A stretch of 64,000 nucleotides of DNA. It comes from Diplonema papillatum (taxonomy: Eukaryota > Euglenozoa > Diplonemea > Diplonemida > Diplonemidae). Positions within the stretch are counted from its first letter, which is position 1. Each line of letters begins with the position of its first letter. This document shows, in pieces, positions 6,896-52,100 of this stretch. The position numbers were made by a program, and so were the translations under genes. The DNA lies in the NCBI GenBank assembly GCA_030068145.1, contig JAPJBO010000044.1, forward strand, positions 1 through 64,000, given 5' to 3'. The notes beneath the pieces were generated by a model, which saw only the letters and a list, made by a program, of their open reading frames with translations, was not told where the DNA came from and searched no databases.

Positions 6896-7085
6896 GTCAC
6901 CGGGGTACGGCGACAGGCACCACCACCACCACGTGCCTCATCCCCGGGTCATCCCCGTGCCGGTGCCCGTGGCTGTGCTCAGCCCCGCACGGCACCACCA
7001 CCACCACCCGCCGCCGCCGGCTGTATACGTGGAAACCCGTACTGGCGGCCAGCGCATCACGCCACGGGAAAAGTAAAGGGGATGT
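6896..7085 (+). pseudogene. LRR-gene 5' exon ghost, copy 1 (3' part only)
   Basis: The stretch matches the His/Pro-rich part of the first exon of the gene at 8133 (ACGGCGACAGGCACCACCAC, then GTGCCCGTGGCTGTGCTCAG). It lacks the ATG end. It ends in the same GGGAAAAGTAAAGGGGATGT spacer that follows copies 2 and 3. Confidence 0.85.
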
Positions 7086-7234
7086 CGCAATCGACGCCGC
7101 ACCGGAATAGATCTATTATTAACAAGCTTTTGTTCTGACCCAGAAACCTCCAAAAAACTAAAAGGCACAAAAGACTGGAAAAAAGGGGGCGCCTGCCAGG
7201 CAAAACTAAGTAGAAGCAAGCAAGAAGTTATACA

Positions 7235-7435
7235 ATGGGCGGGAAGGGAGGCGGCAAAGGAGGAGGCGGACACGGCGGGAAGGGCGGCAAGGGCCACGGG
7301 CCCGCGTTCGGGTGCGGGACCCCGTCGCCAGGGTACGGCGGCGGGCACCACCACCACCACCACCAGTACCCGCCGCCGGCTGTATGCGTGGAAACCTGTA
7401 CCGGCGGCCAGCGCATCACGCCACGGGAAAAGTAA
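7235..7435 (+). pseudogene. LRR-gene 5' exon ghost, copy 2 (intact 66-codon ORF)
   Basis: It has an ATG and encodes MGGKGGGKGGGGHGGKGG..., then a His run, then PPPAVCVETCTGGQ and a stop. The N-terminal half is the same as that of the complete gene at 8133, but the LRR part is missing. It could make a 66-residue peptide if transcribed. Most likely it is a by-product of tandem duplication. Confidence 0.85.
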
Positions 7436-7633
7436 AGGGGATGTCGCATTCGGCGCCGCCGGAATGGATCTATCATTAGAATCCGCAAACCCTCCAGCCT
7501 GTTCCGCAATTATTCGACCCCGCCAGATTGTGTGTAGCAAGCCTTTGTTCGGACCCAGAAACCTCCAAAAAACGAGAAGGCACAAAAGACTGAAAAAAAG
7601 GGGGCGAAGTGGAAGCAAGCAAGAAGTTATAAA

Positions 7634-7918
7634 GTGGGCGGGAAGGGAGGCGGCAAAGGAGGAGGCGGACACGGCGGGAAGGGCGGCAAGGGCCACGGGC
7701 CCGCGTTCGGGTGCGGGACCCCGTCGCCAGGGTACAGCGGCGGGCACCACCACCACCACGTGCCTCCTCCCGGGTCGTCCCCGTGCCGGTGCCCGTGGCT
7801 GTGCCCAGCCCCGCATGGCACCACCACCACCACCACCACCACCACCAGCAGCACCCGCCGCCGGCTGTATGCGTGGAAACCCGTACCGGCGGCCAGCGCA
7901 TCACGCCACGGGAAAAGT
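7634..7918 (+). pseudogene. LRR-gene 5' exon ghost, copy 3 (start codon lost)
   Basis: The same exon, but the initiator reads GTG (AAAGTGGGCGGG). It includes a longer His-coding run and ends in the common spacer, which repeats from 7440-7630 to 7918-8130. Spacings of copies 2, 3 and the full gene are 399 and 499 bp. Confidence 0.88.
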
Positions 7919-8132: not shown

Positions 8133-9071
8133 ATGGGCGGGAAGGGAGGCGGCAAAGGAGGAGGCGGACACGGCGGGAAGGGCGGCAAGGGCCACGGGCC
8201 CGCGTTCGGGTGCGGGACCCCGTCGCCAGGGTACGGCGGCGGGCACCACCACCACCACGTGCCTCCTCCCCGGGTCATCCCCGTGCCAGTGCCCGTGGCT
8301 GTGCCCAGCCCCGCACGGCACCACCACCACCACCCGCCACCGCCGAAGTTCGTCCCGGTGCCTGTAGCTGTGCCGGTGCGCGGGAACCCGTACCGATGGC
8401 GCCCATCGTACCATCCGGTTGGCCACGACATCGCGAAGGCGGTCGCCTTCGGCGTGTTGACCCGCGAACTTGCCTGCGAAAGTGCGCGCCGGGGCCGAAT
8501 CAACCTAGCCCGCTCGTCGGTGGCGGCGGCAGACCTCTGCATGCTCCTCGAGGCGATCAAGCAGTACAACTACCCGATGGGCACAGTCCTCGATCTCTCG
8601 GACAACCCCGTCGGCGATCTCGGGTGCCGGTACATAGCCGACGCCCTCATGACCGGGAGATGTCCGGTGCGCTTCAACATCTCGATGCGCAGGTGCGGAG
8701 TCAACCTGGCCGGCTGCCGGTACCTGGCGGACGCGTTGTCGCACCACCTGGCCCCCGCGTACTGCACGTTGGACATCAGCCACAACCCGGGTGTCGGCCC
8801 GCGTGGCATCAACGCGTTCGTGGCCTCGTCGATGCGGCCGGTCTCGGCTCAGAAGCGGTGGTCGGTGCGGGTGTCCCCCCGCGAGGTCATCCGCCCGTAC
8901 GTTCCGAACACGCCGGCGGTCCGAAGCAAGGCGCGGCTCGTTGGCCCCGTCGGCTTGATGGCCCTCGGATTCGGTGCGGCTTTCGGTGCTGTGGGGCGCC
9001 TCTTCGGCGGGCCTTGTATGCCTTTGTTTCCCTTTTTCTTGTCGCGCATTAGACGGGTTTGCGGGTCTTAG
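8133..9071 (+). CDS. leucine-rich-repeat (RNI-like) protein with Gly/Lys/His/Pro-rich N-terminus
   Basis: The only complete member of a four-copy tandem. The ATG at 8133 follows a purine-rich leader (GTTATAAAATGGGCGG). Residues 1-90 are low complexity: GGK repeats, two His runs and PVPVPVAVP. This is followed by about 150 residues with two RNI-type leucine-rich repeats (VLDLSDNPVGDLGCRYIADA near 8590-8650 and CTLDISHNPGVGPRGINAF near 8760-8815). Such repeats form protein-binding horseshoes. MGGKGGG could be N-myristoylated, although residue 6 is Gly rather than Ser or Thr. A GTATGC donor at 9016 matches the donors of neighbouring genes, so the true exon may end at 9015 and the tail to the stop at 9071 may be intronic. 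The partner is unknown. Confidence 0.75.
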   Translation: MGGKGGGKGGGGHGGKGGKGHGPAFGCGTPSPGYGGGHHHHHVPPPRVIPVPVPVAVPSPARHHHHHPPPPKFVPVPVAVPVRGNPYRWRPSYHPVGHDIAKAVAFGVLTRELACESARRGRINLARSSVAAADLCMLLEAIKQYNYPMGTVLDLSDNPVGDLGCRYIADALMTGRCPVRFNISMRRCGVNLAGCRYLADALSHHLAPAYCTLDISHNPGVGPRGINAFVASSMRPVSAQKRWSVRVSPREVIRPYVPNTPAVRSKARLVGPVGLMALGFGAAFGAVGRLFGGPCMPLFPFFLSRIRRVCGS

Positions 9072-9460: not shown

Positions 9461-9474
9461 CCCAGCACAGTTTT

Positions 9475-9905: not shown

Positions 9906-9907
9906 TA

Positions 9908-10485: not shown

Positions 10486-10730
10486 TAGCCATAACCCATA
10501 ACGAAAGCGTGCACTAAATATACAACCCGTAACCATATAGCAGCCGCCGCCGCGGCGCCCCCGGCGGTGTCGCAGCAAGCGCAGCTCGAGGCGCTGTACA
10601 CGTCGCGGCGCCAGATGCGCGCGAGCGGGATTCCGACCGTCGAAGTCTAAGAGAACCCATTCATGAACGGTCACACGGAGACGCTGGAACCCCGGAATTT
10701 CAAGCGAACTCTAAAACGGAACGTTGGCAG
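10486..10730 (+). repeat. dispersed repeat family B carrying a captured exon fragment
   Basis: The left flank CATAACGAAAGCGTGCACTA...ACCATATAG and the right flank TAAGAGAACCCATTCATGAA...CCCCGGAATTTCAAGCGAAC match contiguous family-B copies at 28903-29048 and 14523-14612. In those copies the two flanks are separated only by about 13 bp (CCTTTTCTTGCTC-like). Here 108 bp of U-box exon sits between them. Confidence 0.8.
10541..10648 (+). pseudogene. U-box gene exon fragment inside repeat B
   Basis: It is almost identical to 14742-14849 of the U-box gene (CAGCTCGAGGCGCTGTACAC, ATGCGCGCGAGCGGGATTCC) and covers its first helical repeat. It ends abruptly at GTCGAAGTC followed by TAAGAG of the repeat. 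It is not a standalone gene. Confidence 0.9.
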
Positions 10731-10739
10731 CGGTTTAAC

Positions 10740-12142: not shown

Positions 12143-12202
12143 GCTATCGCAGGACTCGCAGAAGTCGGTTGGCTAACGCTTGCAGGACCTAAGTAAATCT
12201 CG

Positions 12203-14522: not shown

Positions 14523-14640
14523 AATATAGCCCTTTCTTGCTCTAAGAGAACCCGTTCATGAACGACCCTGGAACCCCGGAATTTCAAGCGAACTCTAAAA
14601 AGGAACGTTGGCAGCGGTAGCGGTTCAACCTGAACACGTA
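14523..14640 (+). repeat. dispersed repeat family B upstream of U-box gene
   Basis: ATATAGCCCTTTCTTGCTCT, then AAGAGAACCCGTTCATGAAC and CCCCGGAATTTCAAGCGAAC. Related sequence is present at 10649-10740, 19491-19530, 28950-29048, 29115-29190 and 61646-61676, and in reverse at 17785-17830 and 21783-21835. Confidence 0.85.
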
Positions 14641-14717
14641 CAGGTCAAATCGCACAAACAAAAATTTGGGATACCCACCTTTCTATTCTGAAGTTACCCC
14701 ACACACACCAATCGCAG

Positions 14718-15805
14718 CCAAAGCGGCCGGGCAGCCGGCAGCCGCCGCCGCGGCGCCCCCGGCGGTGTCGCAGCAAGCGCAGCTCGAGGCGCTGTACACG
14801 TCGCGGCGCCAGATGCGCGCGAGCGGGATACCGACCGTCGAAGTCGACCTGAAGATCGTCGGCCTCGGCGGCACCGTGCCCATCGAGGAAACGCCGCCGC
14901 CGCCGCCTCCCACGGCGGCCTCGCCGCTGTACACGTCGCCCACCCCGTCGGCACCGCCGGCGACAGGGTCGATGGAGATGCAGGCGAAGAAGCTCGCTGC
15001 GTTCTCGCCAGCAGCGGGACCCGACCCGGCTAAAATCGCGGAAATCGACCAGCAAATCGCGAAGCTCACCTCGGCCAAGACGGCCCTGGGCGCCGCCGGG
15101 CTCAGCACGCAGGACGTCGACAATTCGATCGCTGCGCTGGAGGCGGCGAAGACCGCGCCGCCGCCCCCGACGCCTGTCATCGACATCCCGGCAACCCCGA
15201 CGGCGGCGCCCGAGCAGTCAGTCGATGACATCGAAAAAGAGCTCGCGTCCCTCGTCCAGTTGAAAGCGACACTCGAGGCGTTGGCCGTCCCCACGGGCGA
15301 GGTGACCGGGAAGATTGCGGCGCTGACTACCCGGCGGACGGAGGTCATCGCCGGGAAAATCGTCGAAATCGAAGCGCAAGCCGCGCGCGTCGACGACCAA
15401 ATCACGGCGCTCAACACCGCGAAGCAGAGCATGGCCGCCGCCGGGCTGCCCACCGCGGAGATCGACGCGAAGGTCGCGGGGCTGACGAAAGAAAAAGACG
15501 ACATCCTCGCCTCTGCGCCGAAGCTCGGCGTGGCCACTGAGGAGGAGGAGGGTACACCGGCGGCTGGCGAGGACCAGCCTCCGGAGCGGTTCCTGTGCGG
15601 GATTTCGAAGGAGCTGATGGCGAACCCCGTGACCGTCAACAAGCACGACTACGAGCGGGCGAACATCATCGAGTACCTCCGGTCGTCGGAGCGGAAGGTC
15701 TGCCCCGCCGACAACGAGACGCCGATCGCAGAAACAGACGTCCAACCGAACTCCGCGTTGCTCAAAGAGATCAACGACTGGCTCACGGCGCACCCCAATT
15801 ACTGA
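14718..15805 (+). CDS. U-box E3 ubiquitin ligase-like protein with four helical-hairpin repeats (5' incomplete)
   Basis: The C-terminal 70 residues (from about 15580) form a U-box: PPERFLCGISKELMANPV, then DYERANIIEYL, CPADNETPI, and PNSALLKEINDW before the stop. U-boxes recruit E2 enzymes for ubiquitin transfer and need no zinc. Before it, a helix-turn-helix unit occurs four times (near 14770, 15040, 15235 and 15385) with the consensus L-x7-L-x-A-x-G-[LI]-[PS]-T-x-[ED]-[VI]-D-x-K-[IV]-x-x-L. It looks WHEP-like, an inference from pattern alone. Pro/Ala linkers join the units. The exon seems to open at an acceptor (ATCGCAG, 14717); no convincing ATG was found upstream, so at least one earlier exon is missing. 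A broken tandem copy follows, and a piece of the first repeat lies at 10541. Confidence 0.85.
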
Positions 15806-15867
15806 AGCAACGAGTCGTTCCAGTTTTTAACCCGACTTTCCCCACCCGCAATTATCTCTCCATCGAC

Positions 15868-16400
15868 ATCCCGGCAACCCCCTACGGCGGCGCCCGCCCA
15901 GTCAGTCGATGACATCGAAAAAGAGCTCGCGTCCCTCGTCCAGTTGAAAGCGACACTCGAGGCGTTGGCCGTCCCCACGGGAGCTGACCGAGTCGCCGAA
16001 ATCGAAGCGCAAGCCGCGCGTGTCGACGACCAAATCACGGCGCTCAACACCGCGAAGCAGAGCATGGCCGCCGCCGGGCTGCCCACCGCGGAGATCGACG
16101 CGAAGGTCGCGGGGCTGACGAAAGAAAAGGACGACATCCTCGCCTCTGCGCCGAAGCTCGGCGTGGCCACTGAGGAGGAGGAGGGGTCGCCGGCGGCTGG
16201 CGAGGACCAGCCTCCGGAGCGGTTCCTGTGCGGGATTTCGAAGGAGCTGATGGCGAACCCCGTGACCGTCAACAAGCACGACTACGAGCGGGCGAACATC
16301 ATCGAGTACCTCCGGTCGTCGGAGCGGAAGGTCTGCCGTCCAACCGAACTCCGCGTTGCTCAAAGAGATCAACGACTGGCTCACGGCGCACCCCAACTAC
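15868..16400 (+). pseudogene. truncated tandem copy of the U-box gene
   Basis: It repeats the 3' half of 14718-15805 with high identity (from ATCGACATCCCGGCAACCCC). It lacks 51 bp after CCCACGGG. After GTCTGC it loses the segment coding PADNETPIAETDVQPNS, which shifts the frame, so the U-box is cut. The second copy starts only 60 bp after the first gene's stop. Confidence 0.92.
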
Positions 16401-16410
16401 GGAAAGCAAC

Positions 16411-22393: not shown

Positions 22394-22585
22394 CGCAGAA
22401 TATCCAGTCTCGGAGCCCACGGGCGCACTCTGCGAGTGGCCGCCGAAGTGCTGGCGGGCAGCCCGGCGGCGATGCCGGGCTTCCCCCGGACACCATGGGA
22501 AGAAGATGACCCCGTCGCTTCCAGCATCCCGGGTAGCTGCGACCCGAAGGACGTGATGCTGGCATCGAAGACGTAGACAGTGTTG
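22394..22585 (+). pseudogene. ghost 0 of the 25159 gene (middle segment only)
   Basis: GGAGCCCACGGGCGCACTCT through CGTCGCTTCCAGCATCCCGG and the trailing GGCATCGAAGACGTAGACAG match the middle of the tandem unit that follows. It lacks the 5' coding part and is the leftmost trace of the array. Confidence 0.85.
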
Positions 22586-22850
22586 TGTGTCTGAATCCGA
22601 AACTCTAAGATTTCTCTTCCGTTGAGAACCTCAAGCATTAGTACCAAATATGCAGACAGTGTTTGTGTGTGAATCCGAAACTCTAATATTTCTCTTCCCG
22701 TTGAGAACCTCAAGTATCTGTATCAAATACGCAGATGAATCCGAAACTCCAAGATTTTTCCTCGAGTCCTTCGAGTTGCGAACCTCAAGCATACCCTTCC
22801 ACAACCCAGCCTCCCGCAAGTCCCTAGGGTCCCCCCCGGACTAGGATGGT

Positions 22851-23093
22851 ATGGCGGGCCTCGCCGCCGAGGCGGAGGAGGCGCTCCTGCGGTACCTGAC
22901 GGCGAACGGCCCTTCGAAGCGGCGGCAGATCCGCGCCGGGCTCAAAGACGTGCTCGCTGGGGCCCCCGCGGCGCTGCTGAACGACCTGCTGGCGAGCACC
23001 TGCGCCGAGAGCGGCGGCGTGTACAGCTGGCTCCCCGCCGGCCGGCCTGCGGCCCAGTGCCGCCCCGCCTGCTCCCCAGCGGCCCGAGCCTGA
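22851..23093 (+). pseudogene. tandem copy 1 of the 25159 gene (frameshifted)
   Basis: The ATG at 22851 opens the same N-terminal 68 codons as the full gene. A 1-nt expansion at GCGGCCCAGTGCC shifts the frame and stops it at 23093. The rest of the unit continues to a 3' spacer (CCGAAACTCTAAGATTTCTC) without the C-terminal exon part. Confidence 0.9.
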
Positions 23094-23613
23094 AGGGGGC
23101 GCGGCGGCGGCGATCCCGGCGGCGGGGGTGCCGGGCCAGGGGGGTGTTTGGCACGCTGCGAGCGTCCCTTGGACGACTGACTACCTGCCTAGTCACGGAG
23201 CCCACGGGCAGCGCACTCTGCAAGTGGCCGCTGGAAGCGGGCGGCGGCGGAAACCGTCCCTTCCGGAGGAGGAATATAACCCCGTCGCTTCCCGCATCTC
23301 TGGCAGGTACGACCGAAGGACTTGTTGCTGGCATCGAAGACGCAGACAGTGTGTCTGAATCCGAAACTCTAAGATTTCTCTTCCGTTGAGAACCTCAAGC
23401 ATTAATACCAAATATGCAGACAGTGTTTGTGTGTGAATCCGAAACTCTAACATTTCTCTTCCCGTTGAGAACCTCAAGTATCTGTATCAATACGCAGATG
23501 AATCCGAAACTCCAAGATTTTTCCTCGAATCCTTCGAGTTGCGAACCTCAAGCATACCCTTCCACAACCCAGCCTCCCGCAAGTCCCTAGGGTCCCCCCC
23601 GGACTAGGATGGT

Positions 23614-24126
23614 ATGGCGGGCCTCGCCGCCGAGGCGGAGGAGGCGCTCCTGCGGTACCTGACGGCGAACTGCCCTTCGAAGCGGCGGCAGATCCGCGCC
23701 GGGCTCAAAGACGTGCTCGCTGGGGCCCCCGCGGCGCTGCTGAACGACCTGCTTGCGAGCACCTGCGCCGAGAGCGGCGGCGTGTACAGCTGGCTCCCCG
23801 CCGGCCGGCCTGCGGCGAGTGCCGCCCCGCCTGCTCCCCAGCGGCCCGAGCCTGAAGGGGGCGCGGCGGCGGCGATCCCGGCGGCGGGCAGGGGGGTGTT
23901 TGGCACACTGCGAGCGTCCCTTGGACGACTGACTACCTGCCTAGTCACGGAGCCCACGGGCAGCGCACTCTGCAAGTGGCCGCTGGAAGCGGGCGGCGGC
24001 GGCGGCGCCGTCCCCCGGAAACCGTCCCTTCCGGAGGAGGAATATGACCCCGTCGCTTCCCGCATCTCTGGCAGGTACGACCGAAGGACTTGTTGCTGGC
24101 ATCGAAGACGCAAACAGAGTGTCTGA
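23614..24126 (+). pseudogene. tandem copy 2 of the 25159 gene (in frame but 3'-truncated)
   Basis: 170 codons, with no frameshift at the GCGGCGAGTGCC site. It runs out of homology after SRISGRYDRRTC and stops in the spacer. It lacks the C-terminal domain of the full copy. It might still encode a shortened protein. Confidence 0.85.
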
Positions 24127-24387
24127 ATCCGAAACTCTAAGATTTCTCTTCCGTTGAGAACCTCAAGCATTAGTACCAAATATGCAGACAGTGTTTGTGT
24201 GTGAATCCGAAACTCTAATATTTCTTTCCCGTTGACTCGGCGTTGAGAACCTCAAGTATCTGTATCAAATACGCAGATGAATCCTCCAAAATTTTTTTTC
24301 GAGTCCTTCGAGTTGCGAACCTCAAGCATACCCTTCCACAACCCAGCCTCCCGCAAGTTCCTAGGGTCCCCCCCGGACTAGGATGGT

Positions 24388-24630
24388 ATGGCGGGCCTCG
24401 CCGCCGAGGCGGAGGAGGCGCTCCTGCGGTACCTGACGGCGAACGGCCCTTCGAAGCGGCGGCAGATCCGCGCCGGGCTCAAAGACGTGCTCGCTGGGGC
24501 CCCCGCGGCGCTGCTGAACGACCTGCTGGCGAGCACCTGCGCCGAGAGCGGCGGCGTGTACAGCTGGCTCCCCGCCGGCCGGCCTGCGGCCCAGTGCCGC
24601 CCCGCCTGCTCCCCAGCGGCCCGAGCCTGA
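24388..24630 (+). pseudogene. tandem copy 3 of the 25159 gene (same frameshift as copy 1)
   Basis: It shares the GCGGCCCAGTGCC frameshift of copy 1. It also shares spacer variants with copy 1 (CATTAATACC, TCTAACATTTC), whereas copies 0 and 2 have CATTAGTACC and TCTAATATTTC. This shows that a two-unit block was duplicated. Confidence 0.9.
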
Positions 24631-25158
24631 AGGGGGCGCGGCGGCGGCGATCCCGGCGGCGGGCAGGGGGGTGTTTGGCACACTGCGAGCGTCCCTTGAA
24701 CGACTGACAACCTGCCTAGTCACGGAGCCCACGGGCAGCGCACTCTGCAAGTGGCCGCTGGAAGCGGGCGGCGGCGGCGGCGCCGTCCCCCGGAAACCGT
24801 CCCTTCCGGAGGGGAGGAATATGACCCCGTCGCTTCCCGCATCTCTGGCAGGTACGACCGAAGGACTTGTTGCTGGCATCGAAGACGCAGACAGTGTGTC
24901 TGAATCCGAAACTCTAAGATTTCTCTTCCGTTGAGAACCTCAAGCATTAATACCAAATATGCAGACAGTGTTTGTGTGTGAATCCGAAACTCTAACATTT
25001 CTCTTCCCGTTGAGAACCTCAAGTATCTGTATCAATACGCAGATGAATCCGAAACTCCAAGATTTTTCCTCGAATCCTTCGAGTTGCGAACCTCAAGCAT
25101 ACCCTTCCACAACCCAGCCTCCCGCAAGTCCCTAGGGTCCCCCCCGGACTAGGATGGT

Positions 25159-26049
25159 ATGGCGGGCCTCGCCGCCGAGGCGGAGGAGGCGCTCCTGCGG
25201 TACCTGACGGCGAACGGCCCTTCGAAGCGGCGGCAGATCCGCGCCGGGCTCAAAGACGTGCTCGCTGGGGCCCCCGCGGCGCTGCTGAACGACCTGCTTG
25301 CGAGCACCTGCGCCGAGAGCGGCGGCGTGTACAGCTGGCTCCCCGCCGGCCGGCCTGCGGCGAGTGCCGCCCCGCCTGCTCCCCAGCGGCCCGAGCCTGA
25401 AGGGGGCGCGGCGGCGGCGATCCCGGCGGTGGGGGTGCCGGGCCAGGGGGGTGTTTGGCATGCTGCGAGCGTCCCTTGGACGACTGACTACCTGCCTCCA
25501 GTCACGGAGCCCACGGGCAGCGCACTCTGCGAGTGGCCGCTGGAAGCGGGCGGCGGCGGGCAGGTCGGCGGCGGCGCCGGGCTTCCCCCGGAAACCGTCC
25601 CTTCCGGAGGGGAGGAATATGACCCCGTCGCTTCCCGCATCTCTGGCAGCTACGATCCGGAAGCCTTGGCAGGTCCAGTGGACACGTCGTGGCTGCCGTT
25701 GGAGCCGCATTCCGACGAGTTCTTCGCCGCCCTGCGGCGGGTCTCGCGGGTTGCCGTGCCGTCCCCCGCGGAGGCGTCGCTGGGCCCCGGGTACTGCGTC
25801 TCCTCCGTGGAGGGCTACTTGAGTGCGGTCGAGCTGTACGCCCGCCTCAAAAGCGTCCACGCCGTCGCGGTCCACCTGCAACACGCGTCGGCCCTGCCGA
25901 CGCTTGACTCGACCCCGCTGTTCGTCATCCCGTTTCTCGAGGCCATCCGTGACCTCAAAGCGGAAGCCGAGCGCGTGATGGCGGTCCTCGCAGCAAACAT
26001 CAACGCGTTCACCGCGATGGTTCGGTCCCGTCAAGGTCCGCAGGAGTGA
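25159..26049 (+). CDS. unrecognised 296-residue protein, complete copy of a tandem family
   Basis: The ATG at 25159 is preceded by GGACTAGGATGGT, as in all copies. Residues 1-60 (MAGLAAEAEEALLRYLTANG..., QIRAGLKDVL, LLNDLLASTC, GVYSWL) look like a small helical fold ending in a strand, possibly winged-helix-like; this is inferred from pattern only. Residues 70-165 are Ala/Gly/Pro-rich linker. Residues 175-296 are mostly helical (FFAALRRVSRV, YLSAVELYARLKSVHAVAVH, FLEAIRDLKAEAERVMAVLA). Only this copy has the C-terminal part. Traces of that part recur downstream at 26095-26335 and 26490-26697. It might be a nucleic-acid or protein-binding regulator, but I do not recognise a family. No intron is needed. 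Confidence 0.7.
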   Translation: MAGLAAEAEEALLRYLTANGPSKRRQIRAGLKDVLAGAPAALLNDLLASTCAESGGVYSWLPAGRPAASAAPPAPQRPEPEGGAAAAIPAVGVPGQGGVWHAASVPWTTDYLPPVTEPTGSALCEWPLEAGGGGQVGGGAGLPPETVPSGGEEYDPVASRISGSYDPEALAGPVDTSWLPLEPHSDEFFAALRRVSRVAVPSPAEASLGPGYCVSSVEGYLSAVELYARLKSVHAVAVHLQHASALPTLDSTPLFVIPFLEAIRDLKAEAERVMAVLAANINAFTAMVRSRQGPQE

Positions 26050-32616: not shown

Positions 32617-32685
32617 AAAAGAAGAAGCGAGAGATATAATATTATGGCAGAACTACCCAAACCCTCCTCCTACTGAAGTGCGGCG

Positions 32686-32979: not shown

Positions 32980-33165
32980 TATAGTATTATCATATATTAT
33001 ATATGCACAGCCAGGACACCCCCCCTGATTCTCACTAAGAAGCAACCGATGCGCGGCTTTTGCGGGACGGCCGCAGTCCGAGGAAGAGCGTAGAAGAATA
33101 GAAAAGAAGAAGCGAGAGTAAATATAGCAGAACCACCCAAACCCTCCTCCTATTGAAGTGCGGCG

Positions 33166-33897: not shown

Positions 33898-34580
<683 letters not shown>

Positions 34581-38666: not shown

Positions 38667-40130
38667 ATGCCGGTCACGAACTTGATCACCGACGTGTACC
38701 TAAACGCAATGCAAGGCGCGCGGGAGCATGCACCCCCTGACGGCAGCGTAGGTTCGGCAGGCCCTCTCGCGACCGGACTCGCCGATTTCGACGCAGATGC
38801 CCCCTCGCCCGCCGCCGCCGCCGCCAGCAGCAGCTCGCCGTCTCTCCGCCGGCGGCCGTTCGGCAGCCAGAAACTCGCGGACAGCAAAAACCTCGTGGAC
38901 AACAAGAATTTTGTGGACAGCAACTTCACGGGCAGCCCGAACCTCATGGACGGCGGCGTAGGGTTGGCAGGTCCTCTCGCTGATTTCGACGCAGACGCCC
39001 CCTTGGCCGCCGCCGCCCGCGTCGCCAGTAGCTCGCCGTCCCTCCGCCGGCGGGGGTTCGGCAGCCAGAAACTCGTGGACAGCAAAAACGTCGTGGACAG
39101 CAAGAACCTCATGGACAGCCAGAGCCTCGTAGACAGCAAGAGTCTCATGGACAGCCAGAGCCTCGTGGACAGCAAAAACCTCAGAGGTAGCCAGAACCTC
39201 ATGGACAGCAAGAACGTCGTGGACAGCAAGAACCTCATGGACCTCGTGAACCTCATGGACAGCCAGAACCTCGTGGACAGCCAGAAGCTCATGGACAGCC
39301 AGAACTTCATGGACAGGCAGAACCTCATGTACAGCAAGAACCTCATGGACAGCAAGAACCTCATGGACAGCCAGAATCTCATGGTAAACAGCCCGCCGTC
39401 TACACCGAGTGCGGCCGAAGGGCAAGACCTGCGCGACGAAGCCACGCCTGCCCGGAGGCCGCCTGTTCTCCGAGGCAACGTGCCGCTCAGGCACGCCCGT
39501 TCCAGCAGCGAGGCCACAACCGCGAAGCGGCCGGCCGTCGCCGACTGGGAAGCCGGCGGAAAGCGCGAACCCGGAACCGCCGACGACTCGGCCCTGAGCG
39601 CGCTGATGCGCCGCGCGAAGGTCGACGCCGAGGTGAAGCTCGAGGCACCTCCGCGGGGGCCGGCGGCTGGCAAGAAGGTGAGCCTCGCGCCGGCCCGGGC
39701 GGCGGTGTTCTCGAAGGACCTGGCGGCGCGGGGCGTCGTCTCCGCCTGGGACGAGCGGCAGCGGGGCTCGGTCCCTTTGTCCAGAGTCAAGGTCCCCAGC
39801 GGCATGCCGGAGCTGCTTGACGTGAAGCTGTGCTGCGGGCGCTGCCTTACGCTGACCAGCACGCCGCAGCACGACTGCTGGCCGCGGCGGTCGTTTCACG
39901 GGGTCCGGCTTGCCTGCTGCCCCATTTGCTACACGGACATCCTGCGCGTGGGAGACATGGCGCAGCACACAAAGTGCACCGAAATCCTCCCCGAGAAAGG
40001 ATTCAACGGCCGGAAGTGCCGCAAGTGCGGCTTCGAGTGCACCATATCTACTACCATGAAGCGCCACGCTTGCGCGACGGCCGCTTGCGCGACGGCTGCG
40101 TCGGGGTTTGACGGCAGTCCAGCAACTTGA
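38667..40130 (+). CDS. zinc-finger protein with hexapeptide repeats (487 residues)
   Basis: The ATG at 38667 (AACAAGATGCCGG) opens a single long exon. Residues about 20-150 contain an internal duplication (two blocks with LADFDADAP...SSSPSLRRR.FGSQKL, near 38760 and 38970). Residues about 134-240 are hexapeptide repeats of the type D-S-[KQ]-[NS]-L-[MV], about 17 units of an 18-bp minisatellite. A Lys/Arg/Ala-rich segment follows. The C-terminus has two to three zinc-finger-like motifs: CCGRC...HDC, CCPICYTDILRVGDMAQHTKC (C-x2-C-x12-H-x3-C) and CRKCGFECTISTTMKRHAC. It may bind nucleic acid or protein; the family is not recognised. The 3' end has two degenerate copies downstream. Confidence 0.8.
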   Translation: MPVTNLITDVYLNAMQGAREHAPPDGSVGSAGPLATGLADFDADAPSPAAAAASSSSPSLRRRPFGSQKLADSKNLVDNKNFVDSNFTGSPNLMDGGVGLAGPLADFDADAPLAAAARVASSSPSLRRRGFGSQKLVDSKNVVDSKNLMDSQSLVDSKSLMDSQSLVDSKNLRGSQNLMDSKNVVDSKNLMDLVNLMDSQNLVDSQKLMDSQNFMDRQNLMYSKNLMDSKNLMDSQNLMVNSPPSTPSAAEGQDLRDEATPARRPPVLRGNVPLRHARSSSEATTAKRPAVADWEAGGKREPGTADDSALSALMRRAKVDAEVKLEAPPRGPAAGKKVSLAPARAAVFSKDLAARGVVSAWDERQRGSVPLSRVKVPSGMPELLDVKLCCGRCLTLTSTPQHDCWPRRSFHGVRLACCPICYTDILRVGDMAQHTKCTEILPEKGFNGRKCRKCGFECTISTTMKRHACATAACATAASGFDGSPAT

Positions 40131-40147: not shown

Positions 40148-40411
40148 AAGCAAGTCTCGCGCCGGTCCGGGCGGCGGTGTTCTCGAAGGACCAGGCGGCG
40201 CGGGGAGTCACTGCCCAATTTGCTACATGACACTCTGCGCGTAGAGTCGAGACATGGCTGAGCACAACAAATGCATCGAAATTGTCCTGAAAAGGGGTTC
40301 AACGGCCGGAAGTGCCGCACGTGCGGCTTCGGATGCACCATGGCTACTACCATGGAGCGCCACGCTTACGCGACGGCTGCGTCGGGGTTTGACGGCAGTC
40401 CAGCAAATTGA
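40148..40411 (+). pseudogene. 3' ghost copy 1 of the zinc-finger gene
   Basis: It repeats AGCCTCGCGCC-type start and the last finger (CCGGAAGTGCCGCACGTGCG, ATGGAGCGCCACGCTTACGC, GGGTTTGACGGCAGTCCAGC). A deletion and stops remove the first fingers. Confidence 0.88.
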
Positions 40412-40436
40412 GATAATATTATTGTATCTCAAGGAA

Positions 40437-40671
40437 GCAAGCCTCGCGTGCGAGACATGGCCGAGCGCAGCAAGTGTGCCGAAGTCCTCCCCAAGAAGGG
40501 ATCAACAGCCGGAAGTGCGGCGCCTGCGGTCTCGAGTGCACCATGGCTACTACTAGCCACCGAGCCTCCAGTTCCAATTCGAACCCTTGTTGCCAAAGGC
40601 AAGGGTCCTGAGGCGACGGGTAAAAAGCAAGCGCCCAACGTTCGGGTTGACGGTAGTCCAGCAACTTGAGC
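40437..40671 (+). pseudogene. 3' ghost copy 2 of the zinc-finger gene
   Basis: CGAGACATGGCCGAGCGCAG, CTCGAGTGCACCATGGCTAC and GTTGACGGTAGTCCAGCAAC match the gene's 3' end, more degraded than ghost 1. Confidence 0.85.
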
Positions 40672-41444: not shown

Positions 41445-41570
41445 TGGCAAAAGTCTGTCACGAGGGGCGACCAGTCGGCTTCGAAGCAAGCGAGGCGGTG
41501 GCGGTCGCTGAGCCCGGCTGCTGCGCGACCCGGGGTACCAAGCTCCCGCCACGGTGCGGTGCCTGATGAA
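41445..41570 (+). pseudogene. TBC-locus ghost A (N-terminal linker fragment)
   Basis: GTCTGTCACGAGGGGCGACC, GGCTTCGAAGCAAGCGAGGC and GCTGCTGCGCGACCCGGGGT match 45130-45210 of the complete TBC gene, with several indels. It has one repeat unit only. Confidence 0.85.
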
Positions 41571-41599
41571 ATACAGGCGAATCTGGTCTTTCGTGGCCT

Positions 41600-41720
41600 T
41601 TTTAGAGTGCCTTTCTCATCCCAATAGTCTCGGTTTCTGTTGTTTTGCCCTCTTCTCCTGGAGATGCCCCAGACGAGCACGCGGGCCAGCAAAGCCGTCG
41701 ACCGGCGCGTATGGGCTGCC
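41600..41720 (-). pseudogene. inverted TBC-locus fragment
   Basis: The reverse complement of this stretch (GCCGACGGCTTTGCTGGCCC-like, GGGCATCTCCAGGAGAAGAG, GAGACTATTGGGATGAGAAA) matches 44725-44830. Part of the locus was therefore inverted between ghost A and copy B. Confidence 0.75.
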
Positions 41721-41814
41721 GCACGTTTTTCCTCCTTTGAGACTTTTTCCCACTGGCGGCCCCCCCTCGAGTATTTCCTACAAAACAGGTGCTTATACAT
41801 AAGAAAAGGGAAAA

Positions 41815-44790
41815 GCACCACCCCGAGCCGGCGAAGCGCACCGCGAAGCTGGGCCCGCGGAAGGTGCGGCCGCAGGAGGAGTCTGTCACGAAGGGTGAAT
41901 CTGTCACGAAGGGTGAATCAGTCACGAAGGCCGTGTCTGTCACGAAGGGTGAATCAGTCCCGAAGGCCGTGTCTGTCACGAAGGGTGAATCTGTCACGAA
42001 GGCCGCGTCTGTCACGAAGGGTGAATCAGTCACGAAGGCCGTGTCTGTCACGAAGGGTGAATCAGTCACGAAGGCCGTGTCTGTCACGAAGGGTGAATCA
42101 GTCACGAAGGCCGTGTCTGTCACGAAGGGTGAATCAGTCACGAAGGCCGTGTCTGTCACGAAGGGTGAATCAGTCACGAAGGCCGTGTCTGTCACGAAGG
42201 GTGAATCAGTCACGAAGGCCGTGTCTGTCACGAAGGGTGAATCAGTCACGAAGGCCGCGTCTGTCACGAAGGGTGAATCAGTCACGAAGGCCGTGTCTGT
42301 CACGAAGGGTGAATCAGTCACGAAGGCCGTGTCTGTCACGAAGGGTGAATCAGTCACGAAGGCCGTGTCTGTCACGAAGGGTGAATCAGTCACGAAGGCC
42401 GTGTCTGTCACGAAGGGTGAATCAGTCACGAAGGCCGTGTCTGTCACGAAGGGTGAATCAGTCACGAAGGCCGTGTCTGTCACGAAGGGTGAATCAGTCA
42501 CGAAGGCCGTGTCTGTCACGAAGGGTGAATCAGTCACGAAGGCCGTGTCTGTCACGAAGGGTGAATCAGTCACGAAGGCCGTGTCTGTCACGAAGGGTGA
42601 ATCAGTCACGAAGGCCGTGTCTGTCACGAAGGGTGAATCAGTCACGAAGGCCGTGTCTGTCACGAAGGGTGAATCAGTCACGAAGGCCGTGTCTGTCACG
42701 AAGGGTGAATCAGTCACGAAGGCCGTGTCTGTCACGAAGGGTGAATCAGTCACGAAGGCCGTGTCTGTCACGAAGGGTGAATCAGTCACGAAGGCCGTGT
42801 CTGTCACGAAGGGTGAATCAGTCACGAAGGCCGTGTCTGTCACGAAGGGTGAATCAGTCACGAAGGCCGTGTCTGTCACGAAGGGTGAATCTGTCACGAA
42901 GGCCGTGTCTGTCACGAAGGGTGAATCAGTCACGAAGGCCGTGTCTGTCACGAAGGGTGAATCAGTCACGAAGGCCGTGTCTGTCACGAAGGGTGAATCA
43001 GTCACGAAGGCCGTGTCTGTCACGAAGGGTGAATCAGTCACGAAGGCCGTGTCTGTCACGAAGGGTGAATCTGTCACGAAGGCCGCGTCTGTCACGAAGG
43101 GTGAATCAGTCACGAAGGCCGTGTCTGTCACGAAGGGTGAATCAGTCACGAAGGCCGTGTCTGTCACGAAGGGTGAATCAGTCACGAAGGCCGTGTCTGT
43201 CACGAAGGGTGAATCAGTCACGAAGGCCGTGTCTGTCACGAAGGGTGAATCTGTCACGAAGGGTGAATCAGTCACGAAGGCCGTGTCTGTCACGAAGGGT
43301 GAATCTGTCACGAAGGCCAAGTCTGTCACGAAGGGTGAATCAGTCACGAAGGCCGTGTCTGTCACGAAGGGTGAATCAGTCACGAAGGGTGAATCAGTCA
43401 CGAAGGGTGAATCTGTCACGAAGGGTGAATCAGTCACGAAGGCCGTGTCTGTCACGAAGGGTGAATCAGTCACGAAGGGTGAATCTGTCACGAAGGGTGA
43501 ATCAGTCACGAAGGCCGTGTCTGTCACGAAGGGTGAATCAGTCACGAAGGCCGTGTCTGTCACGAAGGGTGAATCAGTCACGAAGGCCGTGTCTGTCACG
43601 AAGGGTGAATCTGTCACGAAGGCCAAGTCTGTCACGAAGGGTGAATCAGTCACGAAGGCCGTGTCTGTCACGAAGGGTGAATCAGTCACGAAGGCCGTGT
43701 CTGTCACGAAGGGTGAATCAGTCACGAAGGCCGTGTCTGTCACGAAGGGTGAATCTGTCACGAAGGGTGAATCTGTCACGAAGGCCGTGTCTGTCACGAA
43801 GGGTGAATCAGTCACGAAGGCCGTGTCTGTCACGAAGGGTGAATCAGTCACGAAGGCCGTGTCTGTCACGAAGGGTGAATCAGTCACGAAGGCCGTGTCT
43901 GTCACGAAGGGTGAATCAGTCACGAAGGCCGTGTCTGTCACGAAGGGTGAATCAGTCACGAAGGCCGTGTCTGTCACGAAGGGTGAATCTGTCACGAAGG
44001 CCAAGTCTGTCACGAAGGGTGAATCAGTCACGAAGGCCGTGTCTGTCACGAAGGGTGAATCTGTCACGAAGGGTGAATCTGTCACGAAGGCCGAGTCTGT
44101 CACGAAGGGTGAATCAGTCACGAAGGCCGTGTCTGTCACGAAGGGTGAATCAGTCACGAAGGCCGTGTCTGTCACGAAGGGTGAATCTGTCACGAAGGCC
44201 AAGTCTGTCACGAAGGGTGAATCTGTCACGAAGGGTGAATCTGTCACGAAGGCCGTGTCTGTCACGAAGGGTGAATCAGTCACGAAGGCCGTGTCTGTCA
44301 CGAAGGGTGAATCTGTCACGAAGGGTGAATCTGTCACGAAGGCCAAGTCTGTCACGAAGGGTGAATCAGTCACGAAGGCCGTGTCTGTCACGAAGGGTGA
44401 ATCAGTCACGAAGGCCGTGTCTGTCACGAAGGGTGAATCTGTCACGAAGGGTGAATCTGTCACGAAGGCCAAGTCTGTCACGAAGGGTGAATCTGTCACG
44501 AAGGCCGCGTCTGTCACGAAGGGTGAATCAGTCACGAAGGCCGTGTCTGTCACGAAGGGTGAATCTGTCACGAAGGCCGAGTCTGTCACGAAGGGCGACC
44601 AGTTCGGCTTCGAAGCCAGCGAAGCGGTGGCGCTCGCTGAGGTCCGGCTGCTGCGCGACCCGGTACCAAGCGGCGGCCAGCGCCGCCACGGCGCGCTGCC
44701 TGGCGGAGCGGCGGCCGGACGGGCCGGTCGACGGCTTGCTGGCCCGCGTGCTGGCCTCGGGCATCCCCAGGGAGAAGAGGGCGCACGAAA
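41815..44790 (+). pseudogene. TBC-gene copy B: start lost, 151-unit coding repeat, frameshifted
   Basis: The first codons KHHPEPAKRTAKLGPRKVR match copy C, but the segment with ATG and MGGCCSN is deleted between CCCCGAG and CCGGCG. A repeat of alternating SVTKGE and SVTKAV hexapeptides then runs for 151 units (41882-44599). After GDQFGFEASEAVALAE and LLRDP, a 2-nt loss (CGACCCGGTACC against CGACCCGGGGTACC) shifts the frame, and the TBC domain is absent. It is therefore unlikely to be functional, although the repeat itself has stayed in frame. Confidence 0.88.
41882..44599 (+). repeat. 18-bp coding minisatellite, 151 units
   Basis: The length is 2718 bp, exactly 151 x 18. Units are TCTGTCACGAAGGGTGAA, TCAGTCACGAAGGCCGTG and variants with GCCGCG, GCCAAG or GCCGAG. 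They mostly alternate to give a 36-bp higher period. Because 18 is a multiple of 3, at least three frames over both strands stay open for about 3 kb; only the SVTKGE frame corresponds to the related gene. Confidence 0.98.
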
Positions 44791-44991: not shown

Positions 44992-46107
44992 ATGGGAGGA
45001 TGCTGCAGCAACGAGAAGCCGGCGAAGCGCACCGCGAAGCTGGGCCCGCGGAAGGTGCGGCCGCTGGAGGAGTCTGTCACGAAGAGTGAATCTGTCACGA
45101 AGGGTGAATCTGTCACGAAGGGTGAATCTGTCACGAAGGGCGACCAGTTCGGCTTCGAAGCCAGCGAAGCGGTGGCGCTCGCTGAGGCCCGGCTGCTGCG
45201 CGACCCGGGGTACCAAGCGGCGCTGGCCGCCACGGCGCGCTGCCTGGCGGAGCGGCGGCCGGACGGGCCGGTCGACGGCTTGCTGGCCCGCGTGCTGGCC
45301 TCGGGCATCCCCAGGGAGAAGCGGCCGCAAGTGTGGCTCCAGGTCATCGACCCCGAACAGCACGGCGAAAAGTCGTTTTCCGAGGTGACGGGCGCCGGGC
45401 TGAACCTGTCGCCCGAAAGCGTGTCGTACATCGACAAGGACCTCGATCGCACGTTCGCGTCGTCCCGCGGCGAACTGTCGCTCCCGCCGTCGTTTTCGGA
45501 CGGGCTGAAGGCGGTCCTCTCCGCCCACGCTGCGACTGCGGAAGACGGGTATTGCCAAGGGCTCAATTTCGTGGCCGCCTTCCTCCTAGCGGTTCTGGGC
45601 CGCGAATCCGACGCGTATGCGGTGCTCTTCGCCGTCACGTCCCGCGCGTGCTTCAACCGCGGATACTACACCAAAACCATGCAGCAGCTCGAAGTCGACC
45701 TGAGTGTCCTCGACACTCTTCTGGGCGAGAGGCTGCCCGAAACTGCCGCGAAGCTGACCTCGCTGGCGCTGCCGCTGCCGGCGCTGTTCGCGAAGTGGTT
45801 CATCTGCGTGTTCGCAGACTCGTTTCCGACGACGGCGGCCGCCCACCTGTGGGACGTGTACCTGCTGCGGGGGCCGCGGTTTGTCGTCGAGTTTGTGCTC
45901 GCGTTCCTCGCCGAGTGCGGCGGGTCGATCAATGCCGCGGACGACGCTTCGGTCGTTTTCCAGCTGGTGAAGAACAGAGCCAGCGGCATGGTGGACGTGC
46001 GGCAGCTGGCCCAGGCGGCGGTGCGCGACCACCCGGTCTCAGGTGAGCGCTTCCAGCAGCTGCGCGACGAGGCTGCGGCAACAACGGTGCGCCGGCAGAA
46101 GCTTTAG
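44992..46107 (+). CDS. TBC-domain RabGAP with N-terminal myristoyl/palmitoyl signal
   Basis: 371 residues from the ATG at 44992. MGGCCSN has Gly2 and Ser6 for N-myristoylation and Cys4/Cys5 for palmitoylation, so the protein is predicted to sit on membranes. Residues 20-55 include four VTK hexapeptide units, the seed of the expanded copy B. The TBC domain follows, with PQVWLQV, I-x-x-D-x-x-R (IDKDLDR, Arg about 153) and Y-x-Q (YCQGLN, Gln about 189). These are the two catalytic fingers that promote GTP hydrolysis on Rab GTPases, so activity is expected. Later blocks FAKWFICVFADSFP and LWDVYLLRGP are also typical. The start is chosen because it restores the lipidation motif; upstream open sequence is repeat-derived. 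Other copies lie at 41445, 41815 and 46353. Confidence 0.92.
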   Translation: MGGCCSNEKPAKRTAKLGPRKVRPLEESVTKSESVTKGESVTKGESVTKGDQFGFEASEAVALAEARLLRDPGYQAALAATARCLAERRPDGPVDGLLARVLASGIPREKRPQVWLQVIDPEQHGEKSFSEVTGAGLNLSPESVSYIDKDLDRTFASSRGELSLPPSFSDGLKAVLSAHAATAEDGYCQGLNFVAAFLLAVLGRESDAYAVLFAVTSRACFNRGYYTKTMQQLEVDLSVLDTLLGERLPETAAKLTSLALPLPALFAKWFICVFADSFPTTAAAHLWDVYLLRGPRFVVEFVLAFLAECGGSINAADDASVVFQLVKNRASGMVDVRQLAQAAVRDHPVSGERFQQLRDEAAATTVRRQKL

Positions 46108-46352: not shown

Positions 46353-46615
46353 CACCTGTGGGACGTGCACCTGCTGCGGGGGCCGCGGTTCGTCGTCGAG
46401 TTCGTGCTCGCGTTCCTCGCCGAGTGCGGCGGGTCGATCGGAGCCGCGGACGACGCTTCGGTCGTTTTCCAGCTGGTGAAGAACCGAGCCAGCGGCATGG
46501 TGGACGTGCGGCAGCTGGCCCAGGCGGCGGTGCGCGACGACCCGGTCTCGGGCGAGACTTCCAGCAGCTGCGCGACGAGGCTGCGGCAGCGACCGTGCGC
46601 TGGCAGAAGCTTTAG
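46353..46615 (+). pseudogene. TBC-gene 3' ghost D
   Basis: It repeats the last 88 codons of 44992-46107 (CACCTGTGGGACGTGCACCT ... CGACGACCCGGTCTCGGGCG). A 1-nt loss at GGCGAGACTTCC shifts the last 20 codons. Confidence 0.92.
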
Positions 46616-46883
46616 CGACGAGGCTGCGCATGTAAGTCGAAAATTTACTGCGCGAGCTTCTGAAGAAAAGGCCCACCGCACGGGTTCCAGACTACTTAGC
46701 CCGGGGGTCTCTGGGTCGCGTCCCCCTCCTTCTCCTGCTCGCCTGGTCATGCTCCACTTCCTGCTGTACTGGACTTCTTCCGTTTGTGTCACCTGTGACG
46801 CGAGCCGTTTCACTAACATCAAACATGTATGAGAGGCAGTGTCCTGCCTAAACACTAAGCTATGATTTTCCCCCCTGAAACAG

Positions 46884-47703: not shown

Positions 47704-48718
47704 GGAACAGAGAAATGGGAGAAAAAAAAGCTAGCACGTGTCATGTGTTTTGTGTTATCGTATTGTATAGTATAGTCCTATACCCTGTGCTGTGGACACC
47801 TGCCAGAACGCCTCCCCAACATCCGCCCGGGCACAAGGTTTGCCGGTTTGCCTGATTTGGCAATTTTAGCACCCACTTTCCGATACCGAATAGATGCACT
47901 TTTCTGACTCTCTCTTTTTCGGAAAGGGTCAGCGCAGTAGCGATGACCACGAACGACATACGCAGGTGGATGGGGAAAGGCCCTGCGACTGTCCCCCCCG
48001 GGGAGCCGCCTCCGGATCCACCTGACGGTAAGGGCCAACTGACAGGGCCCTTCTGACTGCCACACCCTCTTCCGCGGATCGAGCGTGCTCGCGTTCGTTT
48101 TGCGATCTTTCGAGTCAGCTCCGAGAATGACGAGCATCTCGTAGAGCCGGGACGTGATCTCGTCTATTCCCTGTAGCGTTTGCTCTCTGTTCTGCGTTGT
48201 TACTTTGTTCTGGCTGCTGTTGGTCGGCGGCCACTCCAGGACGGGGTCTGGCAGAATCTATATAATTACGTGAGCAGCGACGTTTCTACTGTTTGCGAGC
48301 ACAACGGGGAACCAGGCTGTGTTCGGCGGTACCGATTGCGCAGTTCGAAGTGTCAATGTATGCGCGCATACAGCCGAAGAGACGGCCAGCCACACACCAG
48401 CAGTACGCTGATGCCCAGCAAACTGGGCCACCTTGCAACCTGAGCTCTGGATCCAACTACGAGCTTTTTAACAGCAGCAGCATAATATACGCTATTGATG
48501 CTGGAATTACCGCGGGTGCTGGCACCAGACTTGTCCACCAAATGTGTTCATTGAAAGGTTTAGATATCATCCATTGCTTCGAACGTACTAGAGTGGTGAC
48601 TCTGTGTAAACTCCGACGCCAGCCTTACATGTTGCGGCTAATTGGGAGCGAACCTTTACTTCTGCCACGAGACTGGTGCGGCGCAAGGGCAGTTGAGGTT
48701 TCTCGTCCGCTAAACATC
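47704..48718. other. no gene recognised
   Basis: ORFs on both strands without motifs. It precedes the duplicated leader of the phosphatase gene. Confidence 0.5.
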
Positions 48719-48977
48719 CAACACAGGAAAACAAGAAGGGTTCACCACCAGAAGAAAAAGGAGAAAGCAACCAACCATGGGCTGCTGCAGCAGTCAAGAG
48801 AAGCCGGCGCGGAACGGAAGCGCGCCGACGAACGCGAACAACGCGGGCCCCGCGAAGAAGGAGCTGGCGCTCGGCGACAAGAAGGCGAAGCACACCGTCG
48901 AGGTCGACAACGCCCGCCCGGCCCCCGACACGCTGCAGGCCGCCCCGGAAGGCGACGTGAATAGCTGCCCTCGATGA
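48719..48977 (+). pseudogene. 5' ghost of the phosphatase gene (66-codon ORF with intact lipidation signal)
   Basis: 240 bp (48719-48958) duplicate 49104-49341, including the leader AACACAGGAAAACAAGAAGG and the ATG (48777). It encodes MGCCSSQEKPARNGSA... for 60 codons, then diverges to NSCPR and stops. If transcribed it would yield a small, lipidated N-terminal peptide. Confidence 0.92.
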
Positions 48978-49158
48978 AAACTTTCTCAGGTCAAGAGTTC
49001 AAGCCTCCCCTCCCCCCATGAGAAGCCGTGTTCTGCTCAAACATCAAAATAAGTGTCCCCACCCACCCTTCGAGTACTGGACGGTCCGTTCATTTTCTCG
49101 CCCCCAACACAGGAAAACAAGAAGGGTTCACCACCAGAAGAGGAGAAAGCAACCAACC

Positions 49159-52100
49159 ATGGGCTGCTGCAGCAGTCAAGAGAAGCCGGCGCGGAACGGA
49201 AGCGCGCCGACGAATGCGAACAACGCGGGCCCCGCGAAGAAGGAGCTGGCGCTCGGCGACAAGAAGGCGAAGCACACCGTCGAGGACGACAACGCCCGCC
49301 CGGCCCCCGGCACGCTGCAGGCCGCCCCGGAAGGCGACGTGCTCGCGGTCTCGGGAGAGGGCTTCGACAAGAGCGGCCCGCTGGTCGCAGCGTCGCCGCG
49401 GCTCCCCGCCAACGCGCCGGCCTTCGACTACGGCGGGAACGCGCGCCTGCACGCGGAGCAGCAGTTCACGAAGCTGCTGCTCTTCGTGCACGTCACCGCC
49501 CGGCAGCGCGGGCGGCAGTTCGCCCGCTGGGCGCCGTTCCAGCAGAAGTACGAGGAGTACCTCTTCACCGACGTGCTGCGCACACTCGAGATCCACGAGG
49601 AAAACGACATCATGTCAGTCGACGACGCCTCCTCCGACGGAGGCTCAACTGAAGACTTGAACAGAACCCTCGGCGAGATCACCCTCGACCTCGAAGAGTT
49701 CGAGGAACCCCCCTCCGGCTGGCTGCCGGAGCTCATCGCGAACCTGAAGCGGAACAAAGAGCAGAGGGTGCTGCCGCCCGAGTCGGTGTACATCTACGTG
49801 ATGAAGAAGGTCACCGAGCTCTTCAAACCGCTCGAGAGCGTCGTCCACATAAACGTGCCGGAAAACGGCCGCCTCATCGTCGTCGGCGATCTCCACGGCC
49901 AACTCGACGACTTGCTATGGGTCCTCGCAGAGGGCAACCCCAGCGAAACCACGCATTACCTCTTCAACGGGGACTTCGTCGACAGAGGCCCGGACCAGTG
50001 CGAGGTTTTGCTGCTGCTGTACGGGTTGAAAATGCTGTACCCGTCGTCGGTGTGGTTGAACCGCGGGAACCACGAGGAGCACCGGGTGAACAAGAACGCG
50101 GGGAAGGACGGCTTCATGGCGACGTGCATCGGGCACTACTCCGACCACGCGTACAAAGCGGCGCAGCTGAGCTTCAAGTCGCTGCCGCTGTGCCACATCG
50201 TGAACAACAAAATCGCGGTGCTGCACGGCGGGCTCCCCGAGGACAAGGGCGTCACGCTGTCGGAGATGCGGAAGATCAACCGGTTCAACGACTGCCCGAC
50301 GAGCAAGAACAAGGGCAGGGTCCCACCGAGCACGCGGGCGGAGCGCATCTTCCAAGCTATCCTGTGGTCGGACCCGAGGGACATGAAGCCGAGGACTGCC
50401 CATTCGTCGAGGGGCGCGGGGGTGTGGTATAGCAAGGATGTCACGAACGACTTTTTGAAGACGAACGGGCTGTCGACGCTGATCCGCTCACACGAGGTCA
50501 CGTCGCTCGGGCACAAGGCCATGCACGACGGGCGGTGCATCACCGTGTTTTCCGCGTCGCGGTACTGCGGGAAGGACGACAACCGCGGCGCGTATTTGGT
50601 GCTCCTGCCGAACCTCGACATCAGCACCAGCGAGTACTTCATCCGGCAGGGGAAGATGGTGTCCCTGCGGGAAAAGCTCGACAACCAGAAGACCGAAGAA
50701 GAGTCGATTAAAGAGATGGACGCGGAAGCCATCCGGAAACTGGCCATCCGGCGCCTCGGCGAGCTCATCTTCGCGCGGCGGTCGCAGCTGCTTGGGCTCT
50801 TCCAGCAGAAGGACCCGGACCGGGGCGGAGAGGTCAGCAAAAAGACGTGGATTATTGTCATGAAGTCGTGCATCGGCGAGGACCTGCCGTGGTACTCGCT
50901 GGCGCGGCACCTGGTGGAGGTGGAGGACAACGGCAAGATATCGTACATCCGGTTCCTCGAACGGTTCCAGAACAAGCTGGCGACCAACTTCATGAAGTCT
51001 TGGGCCGAACGCTGGATGCGCTACGGCAGGAGCCACATCACGAAGTGCGCCGTCGACATGCGCCGGATGCTCAAGCGGTCCGAGCACAAGAAGGACCCGA
51101 AGCTCTCCTACCACGAGGTCTGCCAGGCGCTGCGCAAGTCGATCCCGGGGCTCTCGATGACCGAGATCTACTACCTCCTCGCGCACATGGACCAAAACGG
51201 CGACGGCTTCCTCGACGCCGACGAGTGGGCGTCGGAAATGGAAGCAGACGCCAACACCACCAGGCCCATCCCCGGAATCCTCGACATCTGGGACTTGCGA
51301 AGAACCAACAGCAGGGTATGTGTTCTCTCCAGGCTCCAGGCACGTCCAAAGAACTGCAGTACAAATGCTGTCCGGTGGGAGTGTCACAGAGTAAGCCGGC
51401 AGCCGCTGCTTAACAGCGGAGTGCATGCTGATCCATGTGGTCCATGTACTTCAACGTTCCCATTGCTCAGGTCACCACTGTTTTATCTTTAACCATACTT
51501 CGACAGTCGGCGACCACTTTTGCCCAATGCCGAACAAACGCAAGCATGTGCATCAAAATCCCGCCCTACCAGTAGCAGGATCCAAAAGCAGGATGTCGGA
51601 AACGCATATGCGGCTGAAAAGTGGCGAAACGTGGCTGTGGTCGTACTGAAGCTGAGTGCGCGGCGTCACACAGAACCAGAATTTGGCAAGACACATTGGC
51701 CTGTTGTGTAAGGGACATCGCCCAGTTGTGCAAAGACTTTTTTGCGCCAGTCACCACTCCCCCGACCGGTCGGAAAGACGCTGCACGAGGTTGAACCGAC
51801 GACATGCGTAGCGCCGTTTACGAGCACAGGCGAACGGCCGTGCGAGAAAACGGAAGCCGGTTGGGGACAGAATACGGATGTATTGCCACGCTCTTCACGC
51901 GCGGCTTTTTTGGTACGCGCGCGAATCGCGCCCTCGCTCACTCCCGAAAAGAAATAAATAGCGAGAGCGCAATGCACCATGTCCAGACGTTAATCGCTTT
52001 ATAGCCATCCGCAAACGTAAGCAAGCAACACGCGAACACAGAAGTACGAGGCGTTCTTCAAGGACGTGGAGTCGAAGGCTGGCGGCCGCTTCGTGCCGAT

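Follow-up and report, generated by a model that had tools for sequence, protein, structure and literature searches.

Partial gene copies in the window

The window analyzed here, bases 1-64000 of contig C44 (538,213 bp) in the assembly of the marine protist Diplonema papillatum (271,365,524 bases, 2910 contigs), carries genes that are accompanied by partial copies of themselves, here called ghosts. The copies were located by self-BLAST of the window and were found at seven of the nine genes considered, with identities of 74-99% to the matched gene part. They are local and mainly direct, and the window holds 12 local direct arrays, defined as repeats of 100 bp or more at an offset of 61-2000 bp. 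A previous, sequence-only reading had listed partial copies beside seven named genes, and all of these were recovered where it had placed them, in the numbers given for each gene below. Genes are designated by family or by the first position of their frame, and the genes and copies given with two-dot ranges are on the + strand, apart from one inverted piece.

The complete LRR gene (8133..9071, 312 amino acids, Pfam LRR_6) is preceded by three partial copies of its 5' region, which span the 5' flank and the first coding part (6884..7843, 81-96% identity). No match to the LRR region was obtained elsewhere in a genome search. The phosphatase gene with EF-hand traces, identified by Pfam, has a first exon frame at 49159..51492; it matches a EukProt protein at 100% identity, and database protein P0001 begins at its methionine. 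Tags among the further matches, "Rhum" and "Hpha", are those we take to be Rhynchopus humris and Hemistasia, and a named D. papillatum protein is also among them. A single upstream copy of the 5' untranslated region (UTR) and first coding part (48718..48959, 97% identity) is separated from the gene by a spacer of 144 bp, and the genome search recovered no match to the phosphatase region elsewhere.

Gene 25159 (25159..26049) is complete, encodes 296 amino acids without a match to a Pfam family, and is 100% identical over its full length, with the same ATG, to database protein P0121 (296 amino acids). Its upstream array (22403..24869) consists of three near-complete 5' units, each about 775 bp long, plus a terminal piece (22403-22546, 76% identity), and the two downstream pieces are weak: one measures 61 bp at 80%, and the other, about 120 bp at 74%, derives from the region past the stop codon. 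A higher-order doubling of the array was considered, but five sites favored the pairing c1-c3/c2-c4 and one spoke against it, which is too thin. Places paralogous to the unit were found on five other contigs. The related coding places on these contigs (C158, C2302, C2232, C272 and C2) contain two or three copies each, spaced by about 190 to 470 bp as compared to 775 bp in the window, and partial tandem copies thus recur in this gene family.

Three upstream partial copies with a period of about 468 bp (31652..33135) are associated with gene 33166, for which no Pfam family match was found. One covers 31652-31959 and two units begin near 32188 and 32656; the unit includes a dispersed repeat of about 65 bp. 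A GT microsatellite of about 342 copies (33898-34580) is located directly past this gene. The zinc-finger-like gene 38667 (38667..40130, 487 amino acids, no Pfam family) has two downstream partial copies of its 3' part (40211..40553, 77-81% identity), located at 40211-40448 and 40445-40553. The open frame of the U-box gene (14621..15805, Pfam U-box), the start codon of which is not settled, has a 108-bp copy of its sequence 14738-14845 located 4.1 kb upstream (10540..10647, 99% identity) and a partial copy of its 3' part downstream (15861..16410, 84%, with deletions).

The exon of the TBC (Rab-GAP) gene (44992..46107, Pfam RabGAP-TBC) had one distant match among the candidates scored. Two upstream partial copies (41452-41952 and 44525-44785) lie at the two ends of a span around a 36-bp minisatellite (41452..44785), and an inverted piece matches 41600-41710 against 44719-44833; the far-upstream ghost is devoid of the ATG region. 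A downstream copy of the 3' part of the exon (46353..46620, 94% identity) follows after a spacer of 240 bp, and only two weak, short places similar to the TBC 3' region were found elsewhere in the genome search. An 18-bp repeat in the coding sequence (45073-45140, 3.8 copies) is matched by the 75-copy 36-bp unit between the upstream ghosts (41885-44594), an array that looks as if it had been freed from constraint.

Several ghosts retain an ATG, as had been claimed: at 7235 in the LRR ghosts, with a GTG at 7634, at 22851, 23614 and 24388 upstream of gene 25159, at 32218 and 32686 upstream of gene 33166, and in the phosphatase ghost, which starts a frame of 66 codons as read by eye. At the TLD gene 28125, an upstream tandem array (27657-28002) ends before the ATG, and the end of the ArfGAP gene 3551 is touched only by a repeat that is also found elsewhere (2932-3112 with 4538-4725).

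Other features of the window include a 41-bp repeat that fills positions 1-2164 in two arrays of opposite orientation (13.5 and 39.4 copies), which meet head to head near 553, and a sequence at 12000-12400 that is present at at least 40 genome places with 95-100% identity. Four genes start with Met-Gly (8133, MGGKGG; 28125, MGNTTS; 44992, MGGCCS; 49159, MGCCSS), which is reminiscent of N-terminal lipid attachment signals. Fragments of the 18S and 28S ribosomal RNA (rRNA) genes are located at 48495-48594 and 57948-58027, and about 3600 pieces of the 28S rRNA gene are described as scattered across the D. papillatum genome (Valach et al., 2023; PMC10161547).

Local direct arrays on other contigs

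We compared the window to 24 stretches, each of 10 kb, on other contigs. The sample is not uniform: 21 of the stretches cover the interval 30-40 kb on contigs with ranks between 5 and 205, and the remaining three come from contigs C310, C510 and C840. At least one local direct array was identified in 18 of the 24 stretches, and 37 arrays in total, as compared to nine local inverted matches, which are counted as matches rather than arrays and include self-palindromes. A first-order Markov resample of each stretch (n = 24) gave no self-match of 80 bp or more, and a chance origin of the copies is therefore excluded. Eleven of the 37 arrays match other genome places, ten of them via another fetched locus and one via a genome search. 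Removal of these dispersed arrays leaves 26 arrays in 14 stretches, which is an upper bound, with four of the 26 searched genome-wide. The suggestion that a genome-wide process is at work is thus upheld by the sample.

Seven TBC-domain genes from other contigs (L033-L039) served as a second sample. Clear partial copies were present at both ends of one of them (L038), and copies of 59-60 bp were found at the stop codon of two (L033 and L039), while the other four (L034-L037) had no copies on the gene.

The ghosts were also claimed to consist mainly of 5' exons placed upstream. This describes the window, where five arrays are located at 5' edges and three at 3' edges, but not the sequences outside it, where the numbers are two versus five in the random stretches and one versus one at the TBC loci, or three versus six taken together. 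Hence a 5' bias was rejected as a general rule; the overall numbers are eight versus nine. Nor do the data support a behavior specific to genes: 30 of the 37 random arrays lie clear of any predicted coding sequence. Gene edges are nevertheless hit slightly more often than random: seven edge arrays were observed in the random stretches versus 3.1 expected by random placement (P = 0.019), and nine versus 5.8 when the TBC loci are added (P = 0.084). Coding sequences in the random stretches were predicted from codon scores, which yielded 18 open reading frames (ORFs), ten of which were scanned and three had a Pfam family above its cut-off. Of the seven random edge arrays, just one (L023) is on an ORF with such a family match, so the edge tests are weak. 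For the edge and codon counts, the TBC start in the window was set at 44761; moving it to the more suitable in-frame start at 44992 leaves the results unchanged.

Divergence between copies was assessed in 15 ghost-gene comparisons, which are not independent in that they include three 25159 ghosts and two L038 ghosts. Differences at codon positions 1, 2 and 3 numbered 42, 28 and 62, and the codon changes comprised 46 synonymous and 69 non-synonymous ones. Indels within the coding part were identified in 12 of the 15 comparisons, and 11 of the 15 had one or more whose length is not divisible by three. No coding indel was seen in the phosphatase ghost or in the pair of 5' ghosts at L038, and these are also among the most alike. 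The pattern fits pairs in which one copy would be constrained and the other free.

How the copies may have arisen

We consider it probable, at roughly 0.65, that the ghosts are by-products of genome-wide local direct copying, which would act on segments of about 100-1000 bp regardless of DNA content. A founding copy would need little homology at the joint, would come about through break repair, slippage during replication or a template switch, and would either abut the original (X-X) or be set apart from it by a spacer (X-Y-X). Unequal exchange between direct copies would then multiply the unit (X-Y-X-Y-X), and selection would retain the events that leave one complete gene. Copies that overlap a gene edge would survive because one intact gene remains, so that an event across the 5' edge would give a ghost upstream and an event across the 3' edge a ghost downstream. 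Founding by break repair or slippage followed by unequal exchange is probably the route; the unequal duplication or template switching put forward in the sequence-only reading is compatible with the data, not proven.

Clean young abutting arrays share 0-4 bases at their joints (two in L020, one in L028, four in L029, none in L039; P = 0.04 for eight clean rows picked by eye), which may point to joining without long homology. Ku domains were found at two genome places, which makes end joining possible. Locus L038 has the arrangement X-Y-X-Y-X with two mismatches in 943 positions, the pattern that unequal exchange between spaced copies would give. A microhomology test on 27 short remainders was discarded, as many of the rows were pieces inside longer arrays, and for the eight rows no more than the sharing of 0-4 bases is claimed.

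Several points weigh against indifferent local copying. The founding mechanism is conjectural, and the eight clean junctions were chosen by eye. The 11 random arrays that match other places may be mobile elements, and few of the other 26 were searched genome-wide. The edge excess (P = 0.019, or 0.084 with the TBC loci) is not predicted by a purely indifferent process, and most ORFs behind the edge count are without domain support. Finally, no array lies wholly inside a coding frame where only about one was expected, too low a number to bear on the proposed selection step.

The arrays may have a preference for gene edges. In an improbable variant, D. papillatum would found local direct copies by break repair at an unusually high rate, with the gene edges of its polycistronic units as favored break sites, and the gene ghosts would then mark breaks tied to transcription or to RNA processing.

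Slightly behind this, and likewise doubtful, comes a single-step origin of the spaced copies as long target-site duplications or by filler capture, in which a staggered break would be filled and joined around an inserted Y to give X-Y-X. The phosphatase and TBC spaced copies have unrelated spacers, as such a step would leave them, and at positions 25-710 of L032 two 114-bp copies (98% identity) flank a multi-copy insert of about 370 bp that ends beside the second copy; this arrangement could be a long target-site duplication. The L032 copies themselves are covered by no match among the 40 of 2066 candidates that were scored. The phosphatase spacer, however, has no other genome place at the sensitivity used, and the abutting arrays require no insert.

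The L032 insert also bears on the proposal that the copies are terminal repeats or neighboring insertions of dispersed mobile elements, which we regard as improbable for the ghosts. The arrays in L022 and L018 occur at at least 40 places each, and the ten random arrays that match another fetched locus agree with such an origin. The dispersed element in L022 (7047-7706, 660 bp) has direct terminal repeats of 160 bp, and that in L018 (6490-6893, 404 bp) has direct terminal repeats of 131 bp. By contrast, the LRR, phosphatase and TBC ghost units consist of gene sequence and are confined to their own locus apart from short weak matches, as are the three L019 arrays, for which the genome search gave only two other matches of about 50 bp. 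A mobile origin of all repeats was thus ruled out for the LRR, phosphatase and TBC 3' ghosts and holds for part of the random sample.

It is much less plausible that the arrays are selected, with repeated 5' ends serving trans-splicing, expression or short peptides: several ghosts do retain an ATG and an open frame, but the frame-breaking indels noted above and the near-equal numbers of 5' and 3' edges argue against it. An assembly artefact, in which unresolved haplotypes or misjoined reads mimic copies, is the least credible alternative, for although the published assembly was made by combining a short-read with a long-read assembly (Valach et al., 2023; PMC10161547), most copies diverge by several percent with indels of their own, and long reads cross one such array in that study. 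The published size is 280 Mb in 6181 contigs of at least 200 bp, and the 2910 contigs used here thus seem to lack short ones.

Relation to described duplications

Structures of this kind are already known, as repeat-bounded gene structures in D. papillatum (Valach et al., 2023; PMC10161547), the only paper returned by a literature search with the species name and "repeated in tandem". That work covers dozens of cases checked by experts and works through one of them with PacBio reads and RNA-seq. In the same species as the window, it describes the 5' UTR plus coding sequence in tandem upstream, or a downstream repeat of the first exon's end in the intron or 3' UTR, with identities of 71-96% in its example as compared to 74-99% here. 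Upstream tandems of 5' UTR plus coding sequence were found at LRR, 25159, 33166 and, with a spacer, phosphatase. The TBC, U-box and 38667 genes have downstream repeats by position past the coding end, which would lie in an intron or the 3' UTR. The LRR, phosphatase and TBC 3' units are not dispersed, whereas those of L022 and L018 are. The sections of Valach et al. (2023) on these structures give neither a founding mechanism nor the off-gene and 5' versus 3' counts presented here.

Two mechanisms described in other systems share features with the arrays. In vertebrates, repair-mediated duplication that captures proximal DNA (Pace et al., 2009; PMC2671141) also copies locally, with lengths there of up to 619 bp and with exons and UTRs among the copies; the joints in that study show microhomology or filler. 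The events described there differ in that they lie within interrupted mobile elements, come from vertebrates only and include no arrays, and events within 50 bp were left out as tandem duplications. Small tandem duplications that arise when 3' overhangs are filled in (Schimmel et al., 2021; PMC8355091) have in common with our arrays that the copies are direct and abut, and there the joined ends are almost blunt. As reported, however, they follow induced breaks in mammalian cells.

As the genome paper points out (Valach et al., 2023; PMC10161547), gene prediction and read mapping are misled by partial copies beside genes. Should local direct duplication truly be as frequent as the sample suggests, D. 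papillatum would offer a natural setting in which to measure how small duplications start and spread and whether they are attracted to gene borders.

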